From contig JAOZSM010000007.1 in assembly GCA_029939675.1 (NCBI GenBank), positions 1,448 to 33,552 of the forward strand: 32,105 bases of DNA. The letters run 5' to 3'. How positions within the stretch are numbered: position 1 is the first letter of the stretch; every line of letters starts with the position of its first letter. Below, one piece after another: positions 3,973 through 28,462 of this stretch. Source of the DNA: Fidelibacterota bacterium (GTDB lineage: Bacteria; Fidelibacterota; UBA8477; JABMPR01). The notes under the pieces were generated by a model. That model had not been told where the DNA came from. It searched no databases and was given only the letters and a program-made list of their open reading frames with translations. The position numbers were made by a program, and so were the translations under genes.

Positions 3973-3998
3973 CAAGCGGGGATTCGAATCCCCGCTTG
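3973..3998. repeat. 26-bp perfect palindrome CAAGCGGGGATTCGAATCCCCGCTTG
   Basis: Exact self-complementarity, 2 nt after the U32 gene stop; related copies at 8005-8032 and (interrupted) 14943-15226. Confidence 0.9.
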
Positions 3999-8004: not shown

Positions 8005-8032
8005 CCAGGCGGGGATTCGAATCCCCGCCTGG
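8005..8032. repeat. 28-bp perfect palindrome CCAGGCGGGGATTCGAATCCCCGCCTGG
   Basis: Exact self-complementarity, 8 nt after the regulator stop; same family as 3973-3998. Confidence 0.9.
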
Positions 8033-9389: not shown

Positions 9390-12208
9390 TTGATCACCGC
9401 AAATCTATTGAAATATTCAAATCCCTGCGCTCGGACTTGGTAGAGATAAATACCAGAGACTATTTCCCGGCCGCCTTCAGCTCGCATATCCCAGGTTTCA
9501 GTTCCACTTGAAGTATTGTGCTCGATCGTCTTGATCAAGTTTCCGGATAAAGTGAAGATGAAAATTTCACATTCAGAGGGGAGGTTGATGAACTGCAGCT
9601 GCCGAATGGGCTCACGTCGGGTTGAACCATAATCATGCTCCCAGGCAGAATGGGTCATATATGGATTGGGAACTACTTTTATATTATTCAGATCATCGTT
9701 TGCCAGGATGGGCTCAATTGTATTTTCCGAAATACCAAAAGTGTAGGCATCCTGGATATGAGGGGTAACTGGTAGGACGGAAGTTAGGGTTGCTGATGTA
9801 CCCACAGTGGGCGGATTAGCGGGATCAAAACTAACGGTGGCTTCAATTCCATCAAAATAGCTTGATTCCATGTTCATTAATGTATCGGCTTCAATGATAA
9901 GTATGTCAGAATTTCGCAAGACTTGAATAACTAGAAACGATTCATCATCAAGATCTGTTCCTATTCCTGATACGGACACCTGATAAGCGGCATTGTACAG
10001 AGCATCTTCATCGACCACATTGAATTCAAGATCAAAATCAAGGATGGGGGGAATATTGATATCCTGCAGGATCGGTTGAGCCTCAAAAGTCAATAACAGA
10101 CCATCATCAGAGACCAGGGGCAGGTCAAGATCAAATTGTTGAGCATTCACTACAATCAGTGTGTCCTGCCCGGTGATTCGCTTAAGTGTTGCACAGAAAT
10201 TCACACTTAGATAATCTCCAGCCTCAGGAGTATTGCTGGCATCTGCCTGGTCAAGACGGACAGCCAGACCTGCTTCAAAAGGATATTCATAGCCAAGATA
10301 GAAGGGGATATCAGATCCCAGATTTACTTGAGTTGTTCGGTCATAGACATCGAAGCTGTTCGCTGAAGTGAAAGCAAGTCCGTAGTGTTTGGTCAGGGTT
10401 ACGCTTGAATCCGTAATAATAGGCACTGCAATAAGTCCATGGTCTCCAATTTCACTCCGGGCTACATAGTCGAAACTAAGGGAGTACTTATAGGTGCTCA
10501 ACAGCCCTGGGGAAAGGGGGTCAATCTTCAATAAGTAATTGGAACGACCGGTCCCCGTGTAAGTAATGTCGGAACCATTTGATGGTGAATGATTGCTGGC
10601 ATCTGTTCGCGGGATAATACTCACAATATTCTTAGAAGCAGTTTTACTGCCAATGGGACTCTCCAGCCGGGCAATTATTGAATCACCCTGATCAAAAGCT
10701 GTGAGGGAGTACCAGTATTCAAACCCATTGATAACCGTATCGTCTCTATAAGTGTATTTAATTCCAAGATCATCTCCAAGCCCATTTACCCGGTCAAAAC
10801 TTGCCAGGGGGACAGGGTAAGCACTAGCATCAGGAACGGTGTTACGATCGATCTGATCCCAGTTCATGCCGTAATCGAGACTCCGGAAGAGGTGATATCC
10901 CTCGAAGTCCAAAATACCAGAAGCCTCATCGGGAATAGACTCTATCGCATCTGACCAGTAGAGTGTCACAAAACCATCGCCAGTCTCAGCATTAAGTTCA
11001 GGCGTTTCAGGTGGTCGGGCAGTAACAAAGTTTTTGGCATATAAATCATGGGCAGCAGCCAGATTTGTATAGAGATCATCTCGATCGGTTCCAGCGATCA
11101 AACCGATAATAAATGTGAGCGTGTCTGAAGGGGTTAAGTCAAAGGGTCCCGATGAAATAGTGCCATTTACATCCATTCCACCAGCAGCTATAGTACCTAG
11201 ATCATCAAAATGAATGTCGGTGGAGCTGCCTGTGAAAAAGAAGTCGTCATGACTCACTCCCTCAGGGAGATAATCAAGATTGCTGGATAACAAGGCCATT
11301 TGGGTATCATCGTTATCATAAAAGCGACCATAATGCATATCGGTGACACCAGCCATGGCTCCGTTGATCATAGGCGTTTCGATAAATGCCAGCCCCATGA
11401 CACCTGGCACAATTCCCCATTCAGAAGAATAGTTGTCAGCATCATAGGCAATGATCAGGTCATTATTAAAGTCAAATTCAAGCTTGTCGTCTGTATAGTC
11501 ATTCACTCCTCCAGGGTCATTACCAATATCAAAATCGTGATAAAACCCAAAATACACGCTGTCGTAGCTGACTTCTGAATAGTTGGTGATCTCAAAAGTG
11601 AAGAAAAGCATATCTTTTATATCGGGCAGGACGAAGGCGTAACCCAATTGGGTTATCTGAATACCAAGAGGGTCAACCGTATTGGTCGCATCATTGTAGG
11701 CGCAGTAGCTATCCTGACTGGAAACGATTAAGGGTTGATCCTCCTCATCCTGAAAAAACCAGACTGAAGCAGGCCAGGTAGCAGGATTATCACTAAACGC
11801 GATATCAGTGGTTGCAGGATTATGATAACCGCCCAGAGCATCCCACTCTTTATCTGCGTAAAGGCTTTGGATCACGTTTGCTGCACGTCCTGATTCAGTA
11901 TCTGGTGCTACACCAACCAGTGGGCACAGCCTCCACAAATAATTATGACCACTATTAATCGGGAATTCACCCGCATTCCCGTAAGAGAACGCTCCGCGGG
12001 AGATGCGGCCATAATTCTCAAAAAATAATCTAATATTACTGGCATCATGGGTACCAGCAGCCCTGTCAGAAAGATCCAGAAGGATTGATTTCGTAGTCAC
12101 TTGTTCCTTTTCAGGCAGACCATGATCTGCTGCATGGATCTGAGCCAGTTGAAAAACAATGATCAGAATAACATAAATAGCTGCGCTTTTATTCATCATT
12201 ATCTCCAA
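9386..12208 (-). CDS. Large secreted protein with C-terminal T9SS type A / FlgD-like sorting domain
   Basis: 940 aa, signal peptide (IYVILIIVFQLAQIHAAD), C-terminus NIKVVPNPYMTHSAWE...IFIFTLSGNLIKTIEHNTSSGTETWDMRAEGGREIVSGIYLYQVRAQGFEYFNRFAVIK. Confidence 0.85.
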   Translation of the reverse strand: MEIMMNKSAAIYVILIIVFQLAQIHAADHGLPEKEQVTTKSILLDLSDRAAGTHDASNIRLFFENYGRISRGAFSYGNAGEFPINSGHNYLWRLCPLVGVAPDTESGRAANVIQSLYADKEWDALGGYHNPATTDIAFSDNPATWPASVWFFQDEEDQPLIVSSQDSYCAYNDATNTVDPLGIQITQLGYAFVLPDIKDMLFFTFEITNYSEVSYDSVYFGFYHDFDIGNDPGGVNDYTDDKLEFDFNNDLIIAYDADNYSSEWGIVPGVMGLAFIETPMINGAMAGVTDMHYGRFYDNDDTQMALLSSNLDYLPEGVSHDDFFFTGSSTDIHFDDLGTIAAGGMDVNGTISSGPFDLTPSDTLTFIIGLIAGTDRDDLYTNLAAAHDLYAKNFVTARPPETPELNAETGDGFVTLYWSDAIESIPDEASGILDFEGYHLFRSLDYGMNWDQIDRNTVPDASAYPVPLASFDRVNGLGDDLGIKYTYRDDTVINGFEYWYSLTAFDQGDSIIARLESPIGSKTASKNIVSIIPRTDASNHSPSNGSDITYTGTGRSNYLLKIDPLSPGLLSTYKYSLSFDYVARSEIGDHGLIAVPIITDSSVTLTKHYGLAFTSANSFDVYDRTTQVNLGSDIPFYLGYEYPFEAGLAVRLDQADASNTPEAGDYLSVNFCATLKRITGQDTLIVVNAQQFDLDLPLVSDDGLLLTFEAQPILQDINIPPILDFDLEFNVVDEDALYNAAYQVSVSGIGTDLDDESFLVIQVLRNSDILIIEADTLMNMESSYFDGIEATVSFDPANPPTVGTSATLTSVLPVTPHIQDAYTFGISENTIEPILANDDLNNIKVVPNPYMTHSAWEHDYGSTRREPIRQLQFINLPSECEIFIFTLSGNLIKTIEHNTSSGTETWDMRAEGGREIVSGIYLYQVRAQGFEYFNRFAVIK

Positions 12209-14733
12209 TCCAGGGTTAGACCGAGTCTTAGCGTGCGGGGAGGACCAAAATTTGCGGGGTTATGCATATATTCTTCACTATGTCCAGCTATCAGGGTGTA
12301 ATCCGGCTCACCTGTAGTTGTAAAAACGTACTTGACATTTGAGGCGTTGGAAAGATTTAGTATTTCCAGAAAAGTTCTGATCGATAGTTTGCCAGGAAGA
12401 GACCAACGTTTTCCAGCAACCATATCCAGGGAGTAGGTCCAGGGCTTACGCAGTGAGTTGGCTTCAACCAGTCCAATATCACGACCACTGGGGGTGTAGG
12501 GTTTGCCTGAGCCTGCTTGAAAAACAAATCCAAGATCCGTTCTTGAGAAAGGATGGGTATTGAAAACTTTCCAGCCTTGATGTTTGCCAATTCTCATTGA
12601 TCCAAAAAAGTTCAGGCCATGAGTTCTATCGAAAGCCAGGTAATAAAGTCTGGTCGATTCTGTTGTCCCGGGATATTGCTCATCAGCATATGAGGCACTT
12701 CCTTTTGCAATGGAATAGGTGTAGGTCATTTGGGCTGTAAGCATTTTATGGGGATCAAATTCCAGATTAAACTCAAACCCTTTTGAAAAAGCGTAATCTT
12801 CGTTGATGATCAAGGTGTATCCAACATACCGGTTGGGTGCATCATCGGCATAGGGTGCATAATAATGGGTCCCTACCAGGCCGGTGATATCCTTATAAAA
12901 AGCATTAAGACGTCCCAGGACTGCTGGATTGAATTGATGGGTAAGCCCGACTTCATAAGCCACGGTTCTCTCTACGTCCAGATCTGGAGATCCAAAAACA
13001 GGGGCAGGTACTGAGATATCATACTCTAATCTGTTGTATAGGTAACCATACTGTGGGTTTTGGAAGAAGTGACCATAGGCAAAATGAATTTTGGTACGAT
13101 CTGATATGGGATGGGCAATCCCGATTCGAGGGCTAATCTGGTTCTTAGGTGTGGCTTCAACTTGAGTAGTTTCGTCTAAGGGGTCAGTTCGGAAAGTTGC
13201 CCTCCCATCTACCTGATCAAAGCGGATTCCCAGATTAATCACCAGATAGGGGAACTCAATTTTATTCTGGAAATAGCCAGCAATTTCCAGGGGGTACTTT
13301 CTATAATTATCATGATAGGGGTGCTCTCTTTTTGGGTCATAAATATTTAACAACTTGAGATCATGCAGTTTTACCTGAAACCCGGTTTTCAGTTCATTCC
13401 AAGGATTGAATTGCCAAATGATATCTCCCCGAATGTCTGATGTCTTGCTGGTAGAAATGAGATAGGTAGGTGGGTTGCGTCGGGCATAAAATTCATATCC
13501 ATTTCCCAAATCTGGATTGTAGTCGTAATCACTATAGGACACATACTGACTGCTATCCTTCCAGGAAGCAGTAGAATCGATCCAGATTCCCTGACGGTGG
13601 TCTTGAATATACTGAGAAAGGCGTAACTCATAGAACAAATGCTCATTTAAGGTGTGGGTGAGGTTCAGGTTTATATGTTTTCGCGAAGACTCGTATTGAT
13701 AATATTGATCGGGGATATAGGCATATCTGTGGCTATAGTTTTGCCAATTGTGCCAGGAATCTCGGTACATCCCATTGATCTTAACATTGGGAATGCCGGT
13801 GAATGTCAGTTTACTTGTATATGAATTTTTATGATTGAACCCCCAGGGTAGATAGCTCTCCCTCTTCAAATGCTGGCCAGAAACAAACAACCTTAAATAG
13901 TCTCCCAGGAGGGGTCCACTAATGTGCCAGTTGGTTTGCTGACCCTCAGATTTATGCTTGTCACTGTTTTGGAAGGTCCCTGTCCGGCTTTCAATCCTGG
14001 ATCTCCATGTGCGAGCACCTTCACGAGTGACTATGTTTGCGATGCCACTCATGGCATTTCCGTATTCTGCATTGAAGGTTCCACTAAGGAGGGTTAATTC
14101 CTGGATCGCATTGGTACCCAGGTCATTGGCAAAGGAGCCCATAAAGGGGTCTTGAACGTAGACACCATCAATAAGATAGGCTACCTGATTGGCGCGTCCG
14201 CCGCGAATGTAAAGATAATCACCTGAGTTTGTAACGCCGGCCTGCAGGGTTAAAGCATTACTCATGCTGGCAATTGGGAGAGCATCAAATTGATCCTGAG
14301 TTACCACTGCACGGGTACCTGTCAGATCTTTTTTGATGATATCATCTGAAGCATAAACAATCACTTCCTGCCCCTCCAGGATTGATGATTTCAGCGGCAA
14401 ATTGAAGTGGGTCGTCAGGTCGGCAGTAATCGGGACATCTTCGACTACCACAGTTTCAAGCCCAATGAAGGATACTTGGACTACATAGGTCCCTGGCGGA
14501 ATGTTCAAAATGGCAAATCGGCCTGTTTTATCGGAGATACTTCCAAAATTGGTACCGGTCAATTGGATAGTTGCGCCTATAACGGGCTCCTCAGTCTTAA
14601 GCAAAGTTAGCTTGCCACTAATTTTCCCCGTAACACCAGCCCATAGTGCAGCTGGGCAAATAAATATACCGATTAATAATAGTATCTGAGAAAAGTGAAG
14701 AGCTTGGTAAAGCCTGAAATTTGATCGTTCCAT
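12199..14733 (-). CDS. TonB-dependent receptor with carboxypeptidase-regulatory-like domain
   Basis: GKISGKLTLLKTEEPVIGATIQLTGTNFGSISDKTGRFAILNIPPGTYVVQVSFIGLETVVVEDV followed by plug domain (ALPIASMSNALTLQAGVTNSGDYLYIRGGRANQVAYLIDGVYVQDPF) and barrel; 4-gene-end overlap with the next gene. Confidence 0.92.
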   Translation of the reverse strand: MERSNFRLYQALHFSQILLLIGIFICPAALWAGVTGKISGKLTLLKTEEPVIGATIQLTGTNFGSISDKTGRFAILNIPPGTYVVQVSFIGLETVVVEDVPITADLTTHFNLPLKSSILEGQEVIVYASDDIIKKDLTGTRAVVTQDQFDALPIASMSNALTLQAGVTNSGDYLYIRGGRANQVAYLIDGVYVQDPFMGSFANDLGTNAIQELTLLSGTFNAEYGNAMSGIANIVTREGARTWRSRIESRTGTFQNSDKHKSEGQQTNWHISGPLLGDYLRLFVSGQHLKRESYLPWGFNHKNSYTSKLTFTGIPNVKINGMYRDSWHNWQNYSHRYAYIPDQYYQYESSRKHINLNLTHTLNEHLFYELRLSQYIQDHRQGIWIDSTASWKDSSQYVSYSDYDYNPDLGNGYEFYARRNPPTYLISTSKTSDIRGDIIWQFNPWNELKTGFQVKLHDLKLLNIYDPKREHPYHDNYRKYPLEIAGYFQNKIEFPYLVINLGIRFDQVDGRATFRTDPLDETTQVEATPKNQISPRIGIAHPISDRTKIHFAYGHFFQNPQYGYLYNRLEYDISVPAPVFGSPDLDVERTVAYEVGLTHQFNPAVLGRLNAFYKDITGLVGTHYYAPYADDAPNRYVGYTLIINEDYAFSKGFEFNLEFDPHKMLTAQMTYTYSIAKGSASYADEQYPGTTESTRLYYLAFDRTHGLNFFGSMRIGKHQGWKVFNTHPFSRTDLGFVFQAGSGKPYTPSGRDIGLVEANSLRKPWTYSLDMVAGKRWSLPGKLSIRTFLEILNLSNASNVKYVFTTTGEPDYTLIAGHSEEYMHNPANFGPPRTLRLGLTLDWR

Positions 14734-14958
14734 TTGAGAACCCGTAAGCCTGGCAAGAGTTAATATCGGTCAATAATTAGGGAGAGTCTTTATCCCCACG
14801 AATAATTGAAAAATCCCATTACTCATATATATGACAATCAATTGTGCTTTAAACCATGGTGCAACTTAACCCAGTCTTAGGAGCATTGTGCAAAAATTCG
14901 TAAAACTGGAGTCCCAAAAAATTGCTTTGGATTTGAATATGACCAGGCGGGGATTCGA

Positions 14959-15210
14959 GGGGCTGTGTGAAAACGGCATTGCAAAACTATAGTGAGGAGA
15001 TTCTTAGCTAAAATCATTTGCTTGGTAACGCCACATACATCACTGTTATTATTAATACTTACCCCAGCATTTATGCTGGGGGTTATGAAAAGAATAAAAA
15101 AGAGGGACTTTAGTCCAAACAGATTGGGCTAAAACCCTGTGTATATAGAAGATAACATAACCCCCGCGATAAAACGCGGAGTAATTGTTGCTCTATTTTT
15201 ACACAGTCTC
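14959..15210. mobile_element. 252-bp non-coding element (MITE-like / REP-hairpin cluster) inserted into a palindrome
   Basis: Imperfect TIRs GGGGCTGTGTGAAAAC / GAGACTGTGTAAAAAT (12/16); flanked by TCGA at 14955-14958 and 15211-15214; internal hairpins CCCCAGCATTTATGCTGGGG, GGACTTTAGTCC, CCGCGATAAAACGCGG. Confidence 0.72.
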
Positions 15211-15327
15211 TCGAATCTCAGCCTGGAACAATTCGAATCCTCGCCGAGGAAGATCCCAAATCCCAACTTGAACCCGTCATATTTTGTTTGGAAAAGCCTA
15301 CTTTACAAATTAATCTCACCCCGCCGT

Positions 15328-16302
15328 ATGGGTTTGACAACTGCGAAATCTGCCTCTGAAAAACGCCTTCCGATCCGGGAGGTTAACCCCGTTGAATTAC
15401 TCGGCGCCAATGATACCAATCTAAAATTAATTGAGAATCAGCTGGAAGTTTCACTCTATGTTCGGGGTGATGAACTCATTGTCCGGGGTGATGAATCCAA
15501 GCTTCCATTGGTTGAAAATATCATTCTGGAAATGATGGCTGTACTCAGCCGCAAGAAATTTCTGGATAAGGATGATGTTTTGACCATCATTCGTTTAAGT
15601 CAATCCGGTCAGTCATCGCTGGGAGAAACGGGTCTGGATTCAGTTGTTCTTTTTACCCGTTCCGAAGTGATCAAACCGCGTACTCCAGGACAAGAACGCT
15701 ATTTTACAGCTGCCATGCAGAATGATATGGTTTTCGGTCTGGGGCCTGCCGGTACGGGTAAGACTTATATGGCTGTAGCCTTTGCTGTTTCCGCCCTGAA
15801 GAATCGGGAAGTCAAAAAGATCATTCTCACCCGGCCAGCAGTTGAAGCTGGTGAGCGCCTGGGCTTTCTGCCTGGTGATCTACGTGAGAAAGTGGATCCC
15901 TATCTCGCGCCCTTGTATGATGCTCTATTTGATATGATGGCTCATGATAAAGTGCACATCCTCATGGATCAGAAAACGATCGAAATTGTTCCCCTGGCCT
16001 ACATGCGAGGCAGAACATTGGACAATGCCTTTATTATCCTGGATGAAGCCCAAAATACCACCGTGATGCAGATGAAAATGTTTCTGACCCGGATGGGTGT
16101 TAATTCTAAGATCATTATTACTGGCGATCCCACCCAGATCGACCTGCCCAAACACGAAGAGTCGGGCTTGCGCCAGGCCGTGAATATCCTGAAAGGTGTT
16201 GAGGGGATATCCTTCGTCGAGTTTGATGAAAATGATATTGTGAGACATAAGCTGGTCAAGCGCATTATTGCTGCCTATGATCAGTCCACCAGCAATAAGT
16301 AA
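15328..16302 (+). CDS. phoH: PhoH family protein (PhoH/YbeZ-like ATPase); ORF-track start 15139 is probably too early
   Basis: TPGQERYFTAAMQNDMVFGLGPAGTGKTYMAVAFAV...ILTRPAVEAGERLGFLPGDLREKVDPYLAPLYDAL...FIILDEAQNTTVMQMKMFLTRMGVNSKIIITGDPTQIDLP are PhoH signatures. ATG at 15328 is in frame. Confidence 0.93.
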   Translation: MGLTTAKSASEKRLPIREVNPVELLGANDTNLKLIENQLEVSLYVRGDELIVRGDESKLPLVENIILEMMAVLSRKKFLDKDDVLTIIRLSQSGQSSLGETGLDSVVLFTRSEVIKPRTPGQERYFTAAMQNDMVFGLGPAGTGKTYMAVAFAVSALKNREVKKIILTRPAVEAGERLGFLPGDLREKVDPYLAPLYDALFDMMAHDKVHILMDQKTIEIVPLAYMRGRTLDNAFIILDEAQNTTVMQMKMFLTRMGVNSKIIITGDPTQIDLPKHEESGLRQAVNILKGVEGISFVEFDENDIVRHKLVKRIIAAYDQSTSNK

Positions 16303-23507: not shown

Positions 23508-26012
23508 TTATTTTAGAATGCTGAATTTCTTGACTGCGTGAAATTCAGAACCATGGGTATTACTGAAACTTAGTTCATAAAGATAAATCCCTGCTTCAAG
23601 TGCATGGCCCTGTACATCTTTTGCATTCCAGTTCACAGAATGATAACCGGCTACTTGATTTCCCTGGAACAAGGTCATTACTGTCCGTCCCATAATATCA
23701 TAGATAATCAGCGAAACCTGGCCTGCTTCAGGCAGATCAAAACTGATTGTTGTAGATGGATTGAAGGGGTTGGGATAGTTTTGATGTAGAATCAGCTGGT
23801 TAGGTATGGTTGGATTATCATCCAGAGCCACAGGATCAGTACAACCAACTCCAAGAGCCCCCATGGGATATGTGCCAGATTCAGCTCCAGAACATGGCGA
23901 GGATTCAGCCAAAGTATATATATCTGAGTCTGGATCACAGAATAGTGGATCTGCATTTATACTGAATGCCCAGTTGACTGTACCGTTTCCATTGGTCTCA
24001 ACTCCTGATTCACCACCTTCAATATCTGAATACATTATTCCTATAGTATTGGATGCTGTTGAGGAGTAAAACTCAATTGAGTTGGGATAATTATCCCAGA
24101 TAATTGAGTTAGTCAGCGTTGGATTTGAGCCGGTGCTAACCCCTAATCCTCCGGCAATAATAGAGGTAATGTTGGGGTATGTACAGGTATTCTGTGTGAT
24201 GGTTACTTTATTTAAAATTGGTGCACCACCAGAGTGAACCCAGATACCAGCAGCCATGAAGCGAGCTGTATTATCATACACCAGCATTTCATCTACTTCA
24301 GAATCTGAATCCCAAAAATTGAGACCTCCACCAGTTACTCTGGCATGATTTCCATAAACTTTAACTCGTCTTAATGTGGGGCTTGATTCATAGGCGCAGA
24401 ATCCCCCAGCATAATCAGCTTCATTATTTCTAATGATAACATCCTCGATAAGAGCATCTGATCCATAGGCGCACATGATTCCACCAGCCATGGCAGTATC
24501 TCCCGGGGCTATGTTACCTTCAACAATAAGGTTTCTCAGGGTGGGGGTTGAGTTAAATCGACAGGCTATCCCAGCTCCAATGTAATGATTATATTCATTT
24601 AAGATTCCACTACCATTGGTAATTGTGAAGCCATCCAGGACGGCAGTAGCTTCACCTGATGCAATGGTTACAGTACTACCATTGGCATTTCCATCGATAA
24701 TGGTTAACTCAGGACCACTCACAGAGAGAACCACAATATCTTTACCGAGGAAATCAATATTCTCCACATAAGTGCCGGTACTTACCATTATTGTATCAGA
24801 ATTTGCGGCAGCACTGATTGCAGCCTGAATCGTGCTGTAATCACCTGGTACTGTAATTACCTCTGGATTAGGTAAATATTCCCAGGCACCCATATCTGGA
24901 GCTGATCCGCAATATTCTTCTTCCTGCATGTTAAGTAGAACAACAAAGTTATGGATGATCAATGCTTCACCGGCATCGATACATGGCGAGAAATTACTCA
25001 AAGAATAATCATTGTCCCCTGAATCTGTAAATGATGGATCAATGTTGATGTTTCCTGAGCCCCAAGTAACCGTCCCGTTCCCGTTGGTCTCAATTTCTGA
25101 TTGACCACCTTCAATATCTGAATAAAATATTGCTATGGTATTGGGGTCTGTTAAGTGGTAAAACTCAATCGAATTAGGATAATTATCCCAAATAATTGAA
25201 TTTGTGAGGATTGGATTTGATCCCGTGCTAACCCCAAGGCCCCCGGCGGAGATAGATGCCATATTGGGGTAGGTACAGAAATTTCCAGTGATAGTTACTT
25301 TGTTTAAAAGCGGTGTACCGCCATTATGAACCCATATACCAGCCGCCATATACCGGGCACTATTATCATACACCAGAACTTCATGTAGTTCAGAACCCGA
25401 ATCCCAGAATGTGAGACCTCCTCCGGTTACTCTGGCGTGATTCTCACAAACCTCAACCCGAAGTAAAGTGGGATTTGCCTCATAAGCTACGAGTCCACCG
25501 CCATAGTCAGCTTCATTATTTCTGATGATCACATCTTCCAGGGTCACCTCAGATCCCACAGAAATCAAAATTCCACCTCCCATGGCCGTATCTCCCACGG
25601 CATTGTTACCTTCAACGATGAGATTCATAAGGGTTGAATTTGAGCCGAACCGGCAGGCAATTCCACCTCCCATATGGTGGCCGGCATCATTCGGAGTTCC
25701 ACTACCATTGGTAATGGTGAAGCCATCCAGAACAGCAGTGAGCTCACCCGTGGAAATGGTCACTGTGCTTCCATTGGCATTTCCATCGATAATGGTTAAC
25801 TCAGGACCACTCACAGAGAGAACCACAATATCTTTACCGAGAAAATTGATATTCTCCACGTAGGTCCCACTGGCTACCAGGATAGTATCACCATCAGTTG
25901 AGGTCTCGATACCGGCCTGGATCGTAGCTGATTCTGCAGGCACGTTAATGGTTGCTGCAAATCCAGCACTAACGCTGACCAATAGCATAAGCAGGTTAAT
26001 TATTGATTTCAT
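23508..26012 (-). CDS. Right-handed beta-helix surface protein with internal tandem duplication and T9SS type A sorting domain (ORF track start 26174; likely start 26012)
   Basis: INVPAESATIQAGIETSTDGDTILVASGTYVENINFLGKDIVVLSVSGPELTIIDGNANGSTVTI repeated twice; C-terminal NQLILHQNYPNPFNPSTTISFDLPEAGQVSLIIYDIMGR...; ATG at 26012 preceded by AAGGAGAG. Confidence 0.9.
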   Translation of the reverse strand: MKSIINLLMLLVSVSAGFAATINVPAESATIQAGIETSTDGDTILVASGTYVENINFLGKDIVVLSVSGPELTIIDGNANGSTVTISTGELTAVLDGFTITNGSGTPNDAGHHMGGGIACRFGSNSTLMNLIVEGNNAVGDTAMGGGILISVGSEVTLEDVIIRNNEADYGGGLVAYEANPTLLRVEVCENHARVTGGGLTFWDSGSELHEVLVYDNSARYMAAGIWVHNGGTPLLNKVTITGNFCTYPNMASISAGGLGVSTGSNPILTNSIIWDNYPNSIEFYHLTDPNTIAIFYSDIEGGQSEIETNGNGTVTWGSGNINIDPSFTDSGDNDYSLSNFSPCIDAGEALIIHNFVVLLNMQEEEYCGSAPDMGAWEYLPNPEVITVPGDYSTIQAAISAAANSDTIMVSTGTYVENIDFLGKDIVVLSVSGPELTIIDGNANGSTVTIASGEATAVLDGFTITNGSGILNEYNHYIGAGIACRFNSTPTLRNLIVEGNIAPGDTAMAGGIMCAYGSDALIEDVIIRNNEADYAGGFCAYESSPTLRRVKVYGNHARVTGGGLNFWDSDSEVDEMLVYDNTARFMAAGIWVHSGGAPILNKVTITQNTCTYPNITSIIAGGLGVSTGSNPTLTNSIIWDNYPNSIEFYSSTASNTIGIMYSDIEGGESGVETNGNGTVNWAFSINADPLFCDPDSDIYTLAESSPCSGAESGTYPMGALGVGCTDPVALDDNPTIPNQLILHQNYPNPFNPSTTISFDLPEAGQVSLIIYDIMGRTVMTLFQGNQVAGYHSVNWNAKDVQGHALEAGIYLYELSFSNTHGSEFHAVKKFSILK

Positions 26013-26072
26013 GGCTCTCTCCTTCTTTGGGTTTAAGTTCGCTGTAAACTTAAGGTGAGAAGGTGATTTCAG

Positions 26073-26093
26073 CACCTTTACAAAACCTATACA
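26073..26093 (-). promoter_or_regulatory. Candidate regulatory box TGTATAGGTTTTGTAAAGGTG
   Basis: 16/21 match to the boxes at 28442-28462; fixed distance to a shared leader motif (26030-26048). Confidence 0.5.
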
Positions 26094-26133
26094 AATGCAG
26101 AAAAATGAAAATGCGTCTGCAAATTGGTGGAGG

Positions 26134-28341
26134 TCATTTGAGATAGACCATCTTAATCGTCTGACAAAATTCACTTGCCTCTATTCTGGCCAGGTACATC
26201 CCGGTGCTAACCTGTCTTCCGGCCTGATCTGTCCCATTCCATTGGATCTGATAACAGCCTGCAGCCTGTATTTGATTCACGAGACTTTGGATTTCCCGAC
26301 CTTGCATATCAAAAATGGTCAGACTTATTTCAGACTGTGTAGGTAACTCGTATTTGATTGTAGTTTCCGGGTTAAAAGGGTTAGGAAAATTTTGAGCAAG
26401 TTCATACTGAATCGGTGCCACATCAGATTGGGTTGATACTATCAGCGATTCGGAGCCAATGATGTACAAACCATCATCACCATCTGCCAAATAGATATTG
26501 CCATCATGAACGACCACGTCCCAGGCATAACCTCCTGTATTATAATAGCCTGTTTCTACAGGATTTTCTGGATCAGTGACATCCAGGATGCTTAGACCAG
26601 CATAACCATCAGCTACGTAAACATTATTAGCGTAGTAATAAACATCGATAGCCTCACCTGTTGTTTCAAAATTACTTATTTCGCTGGGATTAGTTGGATC
26701 AGAAATATTCAAGATACTGACACCACCCATCATTTGAGCAACATAGGCCAAGCTATCATTGACTGCTACACCCAGGCAGTAGCCCGACAGGCTCAAATCG
26801 CTCACCTCCAATGGATTGGTTGGATCTGAAATATCTATGGTCACTAGACCCCAAACTGCTGCTACATAGGCAAAATTACCACTGATCACGATATCCCTCG
26901 CGTTGCTCACGTTATTGTTTGAACCTACTACCGTCAGGTCATAGGGGTCAGAAATATCAATGATCTGTAGACCGTCCCAGCCAGATGCAACATAGGCAAG
27001 CCCTTCAACGGTCACAACATCCCAGACATCATTTAGTTCTAGACTTGCTGTTTCTGTTGGGTTAATCGGATCAGATATATCAACACACAATAATCCATGT
27101 TGGGCATCTGCCAGATAGGCATAATCACCGTTAACAGCCACACCAGATGCATTCCCGGATTCTAAAACTCCGACCTCTATTGGCTGGGAGGGCTCAGAAA
27201 TATCGATTATCCTTAATCCGGCAGCCTCAGCTGCTAGGAATGCATAATTGCCATTAATAGTCAAATTTTTTGCATAACCCCCCGTTGGATGATGAGTCAC
27301 TTCAACAGGTTCGGCAGGGTTGGATACGTCGATGATCTGCATCCCCAGATACGCTTGAGCGAGAAACACAGAATTACCGCTGTGAACAATCTGTTGCGGA
27401 AGTGACTCCCAATACGCAAAGAAATCCACCTCAAGCTCGATAGAACCTATTTCAAAAGGTGCCGTAGGATCAGAAATGTCCAGGATTCGAACCCCTTCCA
27501 TATCTATTAAATAGGCAAGATTTCCACTAACGGTCACATCAGCAGTTTCTACCGTTTGCAAAAAAGTCCCTGTTATAAATGGGGTGTTGGGATCAGACAT
27601 ATCGATTATGTGTAATCCAGTATAGTCAGCTAAATAGGCATATCCATCACCAACTGCTATGTTGCGAGTACCAGAATGATCTAAAGTAACAGTTTCCAGT
27701 GGGTTGGCGGGGTCAGATATGTCAATGATCATCAGACCATTATAAACGCTTGTTAGGAAAGCATAGTTACCATTAATGGCTACATCAGTAATTTTGCCCC
27801 CTAGATTTAAAAGCCCAACTTCCAGTGGCATAAATGGATCAGACACATCAAGGATTTGAAGACCGCTAATTCCATCAGCTACATAGGCGAATTCGTCGTT
27901 GATAGCAACTTGATAAGCATATCCTTCAGTATCAAAAAAGCCGACTTCAACTGGTTCGGCTGGATTGGAGATATCGATGATGCGTAACCCCGCCACCATA
28001 TCTGCTATATAGGCATAATTACCACTGACTGTTACACCAAGAACTATGGAGGGAGTGACGATCTTCCCCAATCCAAGGGGGTTCATGGGATCAGAAATAT
28101 CCAATATCTCCAGATAGCCCCCATTTCCTAGATATGCTGTAGTCCCGGATACGTCTACAGCATAGCAGGGACCGTTGGCCCAACGACCAACGAGATCAGC
28201 ATTGCTGGCTTGTCCAAGACTGGAGCCCGTCAGGATGATTAAAATTAAAAGGCTAGTTAATCGAAAATTCTTAATTGCACCCAGATCCTGAATTGACTTC
28301 AATAGAGTTGGGTATCTCCGAAGTGTCTTTGCTGATTGCAT
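26134..28341 (-). CDS. LVIVD-repeat (beta-propeller) surface protein with T9SS type A sorting domain (ORF track start 28401; likely start 28341)
   Basis: Many ...VSGNYAYIADMVAGLRIIDISNPAEPVEVG... repeats; C-terminus LAQNFPNPFNPETTIKYELPTQSEISLTIFDMQGREIQSLV...STGMYLARIEASEFCQTIKMVYLK; signal peptide after MQSAK start. Confidence 0.9.
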   Translation of the reverse strand: MQSAKTLRRYPTLLKSIQDLGAIKNFRLTSLLILIILTGSSLGQASNADLVGRWANGPCYAVDVSGTTAYLGNGGYLEILDISDPMNPLGLGKIVTPSIVLGVTVSGNYAYIADMVAGLRIIDISNPAEPVEVGFFDTEGYAYQVAINDEFAYVADGISGLQILDVSDPFMPLEVGLLNLGGKITDVAINGNYAFLTSVYNGLMIIDISDPANPLETVTLDHSGTRNIAVGDGYAYLADYTGLHIIDMSDPNTPFITGTFLQTVETADVTVSGNLAYLIDMEGVRILDISDPTAPFEIGSIELEVDFFAYWESLPQQIVHSGNSVFLAQAYLGMQIIDVSNPAEPVEVTHHPTGGYAKNLTINGNYAFLAAEAAGLRIIDISEPSQPIEVGVLESGNASGVAVNGDYAYLADAQHGLLCVDISDPINPTETASLELNDVWDVVTVEGLAYVASGWDGLQIIDISDPYDLTVVGSNNNVSNARDIVISGNFAYVAAVWGLVTIDISDPTNPLEVSDLSLSGYCLGVAVNDSLAYVAQMMGGVSILNISDPTNPSEISNFETTGEAIDVYYYANNVYVADGYAGLSILDVTDPENPVETGYYNTGGYAWDVVVHDGNIYLADGDDGLYIIGSESLIVSTQSDVAPIQYELAQNFPNPFNPETTIKYELPTQSEISLTIFDMQGREIQSLVNQIQAAGCYQIQWNGTDQAGRQVSTGMYLARIEASEFCQTIKMVYLK

Positions 28342-28398
28342 GTTGCCACCTTTCTGATTTAAGTTCGGTGTAAACCTAGGTCGGAAAGCGGAATCCAG

Positions 28399-28462
28399 CA
28401 TCTTTACTATATCTTTACAGGGGGGTAAAAAGGGGCCAAAACATCTTTACTTTATCTATACA
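28399..28462 (-). promoter_or_regulatory. Two candidate regulatory boxes upstream of the LVIVD gene
   Basis: 28399-28419 and 28442-28462 read TGTAAAGATATAGTAAAGATG and TGTATAGATAAAGTAAAGATG on the minus strand (19/21), offset 43 bp. Confidence 0.55.

Follow-up and report, generated by a model that had tools for sequence, protein, structure and literature searches.

The insertion analysed here lies in the intergenic region between a minus-strand ORF (12199-14733), the next gene upstream, and a phoH-like gene on the plus strand (15328-16302), which follows directly downstream, in a window that comprises the whole stretch of 32,105 nucleotides under study. At this site, an element of 252 bp (14959-15210, plus strand), flanked by a duplication of the tetranucleotide TCGA, divides a 28-bp palindrome at its centre, in the order CCAGGCGGGGAT-TCGA (14943-14958), element, TCGA-ATCTCAGCCTGG (15211-15226), with the left arm of the palindrome at 14943-14954, the copies of the target-site duplication (TSD) at 14955-14958 and 15211-15214, and the right arm at 15215-15226. 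When the flanks are rejoined, 10 of the 12 arm positions pair around TCGA, a score that random genome positions reach at a frequency of 1e-4; both the coordinates and the exactly central placement put forward in a previous reading of the DNA without database searches (the sequence-only reading) are confirmed. The element has no genes of its own and is bounded by imperfect terminal inverted repeats (TIRs) of 16 bp, GGGGCTGTGTGAAAAC on the left (14959-14974) and GAGACTGTGTAAAAAT, read on the minus strand, on the right (15195-15210). Its inner part (15062-15179) is a composite of three hairpins, namely a REP-like hairpin, CCCCAGCATTTATGCTGGGG (15062-15081), a central hairpin, GGACTTTAGTCC ... GGGCTAAAACCC (15103-15138), and a second REP-like hairpin, CCGCGATAAAACGCGG (15164-15179). 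The several hairpins that the earlier reading had noticed in the insert are indeed present, and the DNA fold of the element has a z score of -7.6. Farther downstream in the window, ORF 26134-28401 (minus strand) contains about a dozen coding repeats of 123-126 nt (26569-28116), and a duplication spaced by 1092 nt (23969-25890) lies within ORF 23508-26174 (minus strand).

Intact palindromes of the family to which the target site belongs had likewise been reported at two positions of the window, and a sequence scan recovers both, CAAGCGGGGATTCGAATCCCCGCTTG at 3973-3998 and CCAGGCGGGGATTCGAATCCCCGCCTGG at 8005-8032, with 0.09 matches to the 16-bp core (up to three mismatches) expected by chance. 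When GGGGATTCGAATCCCC is searched across the 3.2-Mb metagenome-assembled genome (MAG) with no more than two mismatches, about nine intact members emerge, and the remaining near-matches are tRNA-like: those on contigs C313 and C325 are called as tRNA genes, and the one on C13 is tRNA-like by appearance only. The likeness of GGGGATTCGAATCCCC to the tRNA T-arm is probably a coincidence. Members of the family also occur in small clusters of variants on contigs C65 and C117 (loci L031 1460-1540 and L038 1490-1620), for example as CCAAACTGGGATTCAAATCCCAGCCC adjoining CCAGGCGGGGATTCGAATCCCCGCCTGG, and a degenerate copy lies just to the right of the insertion (15231-15250). In the congeners, no unoccupied counterpart of the window locus upstream of phoH was found; those upstream regions that could be read contain no such palindrome.

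The element belongs to a larger population of short, gene-less, multicopy sequences. A second copy, 90% identical to the one in the window, is present on contig C199 of the same MAG. This genome contains 34 occurrences of the terminal motif GRCTGTGTRAAAA and none of the reversed control pattern; most of the 34 mark the ends of a second, 188-bp class of MITEs. In the congeneric genome G001, MITEs of about 240 bp with the same TIR have both ends visible at 16 places, and 7 of these 16 were found because they resemble the window element over its positions 84-252 (about 75% identity). Beside one end, members of the 188-bp class repeat the TIR a third time in inverted orientation, which forms a near-perfect terminal hairpin of 40 bp (GGCTGTGTGAAAACGGGTTGAGACCCGTTTTCACACAGCC); examples are L075 4136-4324, L077 967-1155, L073 3155-3342 and L072 13274-13461, all in the same MAG. 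Many contigs of this MAG, which is 91% complete, start (C24, C217, C234, C255, C277, C343) or end (C18, C142, C157) inside MITEs; thus, the assembly is broken at many repeat copies, and the numbers of MITEs and of full-length ISs are probably underestimated.

The same TIR terminates a larger element in the congeners G005, G007, G014 and G018 (the named congeners are Candidatus Neomarinimicrobiota). The complete autonomous IS in G014 (contig JABMQQ010000171.1, Candidatus Neomarinimicrobiota bin.62) is 1,774 bp long, has the ends GAGGCTGTGTGAGAAC/T and contains a single ORF encoding 483 aa, the product of which matches the NCBIfam model of the IS1182 transposase (NF033551; E = 1.9e-107, 360 bits against a cut-off of 270) as well as the Pfam families PF13751 (DDE_Tnp_1_6) and PF05598 (DUF772). 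The TIR of the autonomous IS in these sister genomes is GAGGCTGTGTGARAA; the MITE terminus GRGGCTGTGTGAAAAC corresponds to GAGGCTGTGTGARAAC/T at the IS ends in G014, G005 and G007, and the hexamer TTGCAA at positions 21-26 of the left end of the window MITE is also found at the right end of the IS. Because its TIR is shared with an autonomous IS that encodes an IS1182 transposase, the window element is, judging by its termini, an IS1182-type MITE, and we predict that it is mobilised in trans by such a transposase. No IS1182-family transposase of this lineage was found in the MAG that contains the window, a search with PF13751 included. The sequence-only reading had pointed to movers similar to IS1397 or IS621, or else to RAYT; the element with matching ends instead encodes an IS1182-family DDE transposase, which rules out an IS3 or IS110 mover.

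With respect to the target sites, the flanks could be rejoined for 22 two-sided insertions: 15 are from G001, 6 are from the MAG of the window, and the last is an autonomous IS in G005 that has its two ends on separate contigs, on the assumption that both belong to one copy. A full 4/4 TSD is present at 16 of the 22 sites and a 3/4 match at 4 more. With the TSD as the centre, 15 of the 22 sites form a stem with at least six of eight pairs, compared to 3.9% of random genome positions (p ~1e-16), and nine form a perfect 8/8 stem, against an expectation of 0.03%; when each left flank is counted only once, 10 of 16 sites retain the stem of at least 6/8 (p = 5e-11). At nine sites, that of the window copy among them, the pairing score for a fixed loop of 4 nt has a sharp maximum at offset 0. 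Since the targets belong to repeat families, the sites cannot count as wholly independent: of the combinations obtained by swapping flanks between sites, 18.6% still reach a stem of 6/8 or better. Among 71 distinct junction flanks, a few of which are probably chance matches, 66 have T as the first base of the TSD and 66 have A as the fourth, such that the duplicated 4-mer is mostly TNNA (TCGA at the window site).

The target sites share one geometry and differ in sequence, as illustrated by CCAGGCGGGGAT-TCGA-ATCTCAGCCTGG, CCCACGAC-TTAA-GTCGTGGG, CCCCGGCC-TTCA-GGCCGGGG and ATAAGGGT-TATA-ACCCTTAT. The autonomous copy in G005 sits in TAGCACCTGAC-TTAT-GTCAGGTGCTA, and half-palindromes adjoin the IS ends in G007, G014 and G018. 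Counting how often the palindromes of the window family are occupied, as the sequence-only reading had proposed, gives only about one member in 10 in this genome, in which 32 empty CCCACGACTTAAGTCGTGGG-like palindromes are also left. The preference is not specific to the window family; the sites support one for palindromes that differ in sequence, REP-like ones such as CCCACGAC-TTAA-GTCGTGGG foremost among them. At least five insertions lie at non-palindromic sites, on C199 and C156 of the MAG of the window and on C147, C177 and C192 of G001. The C199 and C147 copies also have no TSD: C199 has a REP half on its left flank only, and C147 combines a REP half on the left with half of the other target type on the right, and these junctions could be explained by recombination between copies or by assembly joins. 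The insertions on C177 and C192 are flanked by clean TSDs and lie in DNA without a palindrome, which implies that palindromes are preferred by the enzyme and not required. Earlier, the occurrence of the element at non-palindromic sites had been taken as incompatible with targeting; such sites do exist, on C199 and at a few other junctions, and yet the preference stands: palindrome targeting is strong and not absolute.

RAYT-like Y1 transposases (PF01797) are encoded in 16 of the 19 genomes of the genus, including that of the window. In G007, the palindromes around the RAYT genes (CACCCGAATGAATTCGGGTG and relatives) match the half-palindromes that abut the IS ends, GCACCCGAATTAA and CACCCGACTTAA. 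The target palindrome of the window does not flank the sole RAYT found in its own genome (on C117), which is flanked by CCCAGCCCTTCAGGGCTGGG and AAGGCCGTTAACGGCCTT, with a variant of CCAGGCTGGGATTCGAATCCCAGCC about 3 kb away. Several congeners carry the triple-hairpin composite of the window MITE without the TIRs, and a RAYT in G015 is flanked by hairpins that look like the outer and central ones of this composite; on this evidence the MITE has apparently taken up a REP composite.

The association between the IS1182 lineage and palindromes extends to at least one other phylum. A Bacteroidota MAG (JAUXOG010000010.1) contains a complete IS1182 element, with a transposase 46% identical to that described above and the ends GAGACTGTG/GAGGTTGTG, which is placed, between the flanks ACCCACGACTTAA and TTAAGTCGTGGGT and with the TSD TTAA, in the palindrome ACCCACGACTTAAGTCGTGGGT, that is, ACCCACGAC-TTAA-GTCGTGGGT. 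A more distantly related IS1182 element, in a Candidatus Tenebribacter MAG, seemingly sits at the base of a long, imperfect inverted repeat (L149 2780-2905, 4596-4610) that is reminiscent of an integron attC site. The attC site is another hairpin-forming recombination site.

Taken together, comparison of the sequences establishes that the MITE shares its TIRs with an autonomous IS1182 element of sister genomes, that 4 bp are duplicated at the insertions, that these lie repeatedly at the centres of several unrelated palindromes, and that autonomous IS1182 elements are placed in the same way. We consider it very likely that an IS1182-family DDE transposase recognises the ends of the MITE in trans, prefers the centres of palindromes and duplicates the centre through a 4-bp stagger. 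Under this proposal, the transposase would act in trans on the MITE ends, would preferentially attack the centre (loop) of palindromes, which in this genus are mostly REP-like hairpins, and would join the ends across the dyad centre at positions staggered by 4 bp, so that the central 4 nt are duplicated and the palindrome is halved exactly. The chemistry is presumably cut-and-paste, and the substrate might be either an extruded hairpin or only a dyad-symmetric duplex.

It could be argued that the transposase reads a REP-type sequence motif, that is, a half-site such as CCCNCGAC beside TNNA, and that the palindromic structure of the target is incidental, REPs being palindromes. Most of the 71 flanks do have a common half-site resembling CCCNCGAC-TTAA, and C156 and C199 have it on one side only; however, the window palindrome (GGCGGGGAT-TCGA-ATC) and the G001 site ATAAGGGT-TATA-ACCCTTAT are dyad-symmetric and do not contain that sequence, and the published targets of IS1272 and TnSha1 are hairpins with no sequence consensus (PMC4923244, PMC5678879), all of which makes this explanation unlikely, if far from negligible. 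That a MITE with little target preference merely happened upon a palindrome is next to incredible: the clean TSDs in non-palindromic DNA on C177 and C192 are what such an element would leave, but a stem at 15 of 22 sites against 3.9%, and a perfect one at 9 of 22 against 0.03%, are not, and the independent Bacteroidota case argues against repeat families alone explaining these counts. The same excess at many junctions supports the suggestion of the sequence-only reading that a non-autonomous element could plausibly have been directed to a palindrome.

The element could also be a product of RAYT or of an IS200/IS605-type (HUH) system, in which case a REP composite would have been spread by a single-strand Y1 transposase. 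Such an origin would accord with the wide presence of RAYT-like genes in the genus, the MAG of the window included, and with the existence of the composite without TIRs in congeners and its likeness to the repeats around the RAYT in G015. Y1 transposition, however, produces neither TIRs nor target duplications, and the 252-bp unit has both, with the same TIRs bounding the IS1182 element; as an account of the whole element, this scenario is highly improbable. The HUH component accounts for the cargo and not for the movement of the 252-bp unit, for which RAYT as the mover is rejected in view of the TIRs, the TSD and the IS1182 gene. Returning to the IS1182 transposase as the mover, we tentatively raise the possibility, which we rate at somewhat below even, of a layered parasitism, in which RAYTs spread REP hairpins, an IS1182 lineage present in at least two phyla lands in their loops with duplication of exactly the 4-nt loop, and its MITEs, which carry a REP-like triple-hairpin composite, spread new landing sites with each transposition.

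These observations link REP/RAYT repeats to a transposon family absent from the published list of REP-targeting elements and indicate that, in a little-studied phylum, REP-like palindromes offer insertions a haven between genes. Moreover, the many sites that retain both arms and have a duplicated loop constitute a natural data set bearing on whether these DDE enzymes attack an extruded hairpin or a symmetric duplex. No earlier description of an IS1182-type MITE in REPs, with exact duplication of the loop and REP-like cargo, was found in the open-access literature. Palindrome targeting by IS1182-family elements as such is already published, and what is unusual here is the combination of loop duplication and REP cargo.

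The closest known parallels are IS1272 and TnSha1, IS1182-family elements of staphylococci, which insert at hairpins and delete part or all of the stem-loop without generating a TSD (PMC5678879, PMC4923244). The elements described here resemble them in the IS1182-family transposase, the 16-bp TIRs and the inverted-repeat targets of differing sequence. Unlike them, the window element is non-autonomous, keeps the arms of its target and duplicates the 4-bp centre; in place of a deleted stem-loop without a TSD, the arms are retained and the TSD is 4/4 in 16 of 22 sites, whereas the staphylococcal mode of targeting partly destroys the target. For IS1272, which itself deletes the stem-loop, Wan et al. 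discussed a model in which attack on the loop duplicates only the loop (pathway c; PMC5678879), and the present data fit this loop-duplicating branch. Some IS1182 members are described as targeting palindromes (Siguier et al. 2015, as cited in PMC4923244), and, as far as the description in the citing paper goes, they share with our elements both the family and the palindromic target. The use of REP palindromes as preferred sites is shared with IS1397 and ISKpn1 (IS3 family), IS621, ISPa11 and ISPpu9/10 (IS110) and ISRm22 (IS4), which have transposases of other families; the survey of REP-targeting elements names the IS3, IS110, IS4, IS256 and IS5 families and not IS1182 (PMC1525189). With REP/RAYT systems (PMC2817692, PMC3116915), finally, the likeness lies in the internal composite and in many of the target palindromes, which resemble the REPs around the RAYT genes of the genus, and the difference in the 252-bp unit itself, which moves as an element with TIRs and a TSD and not as a REP.
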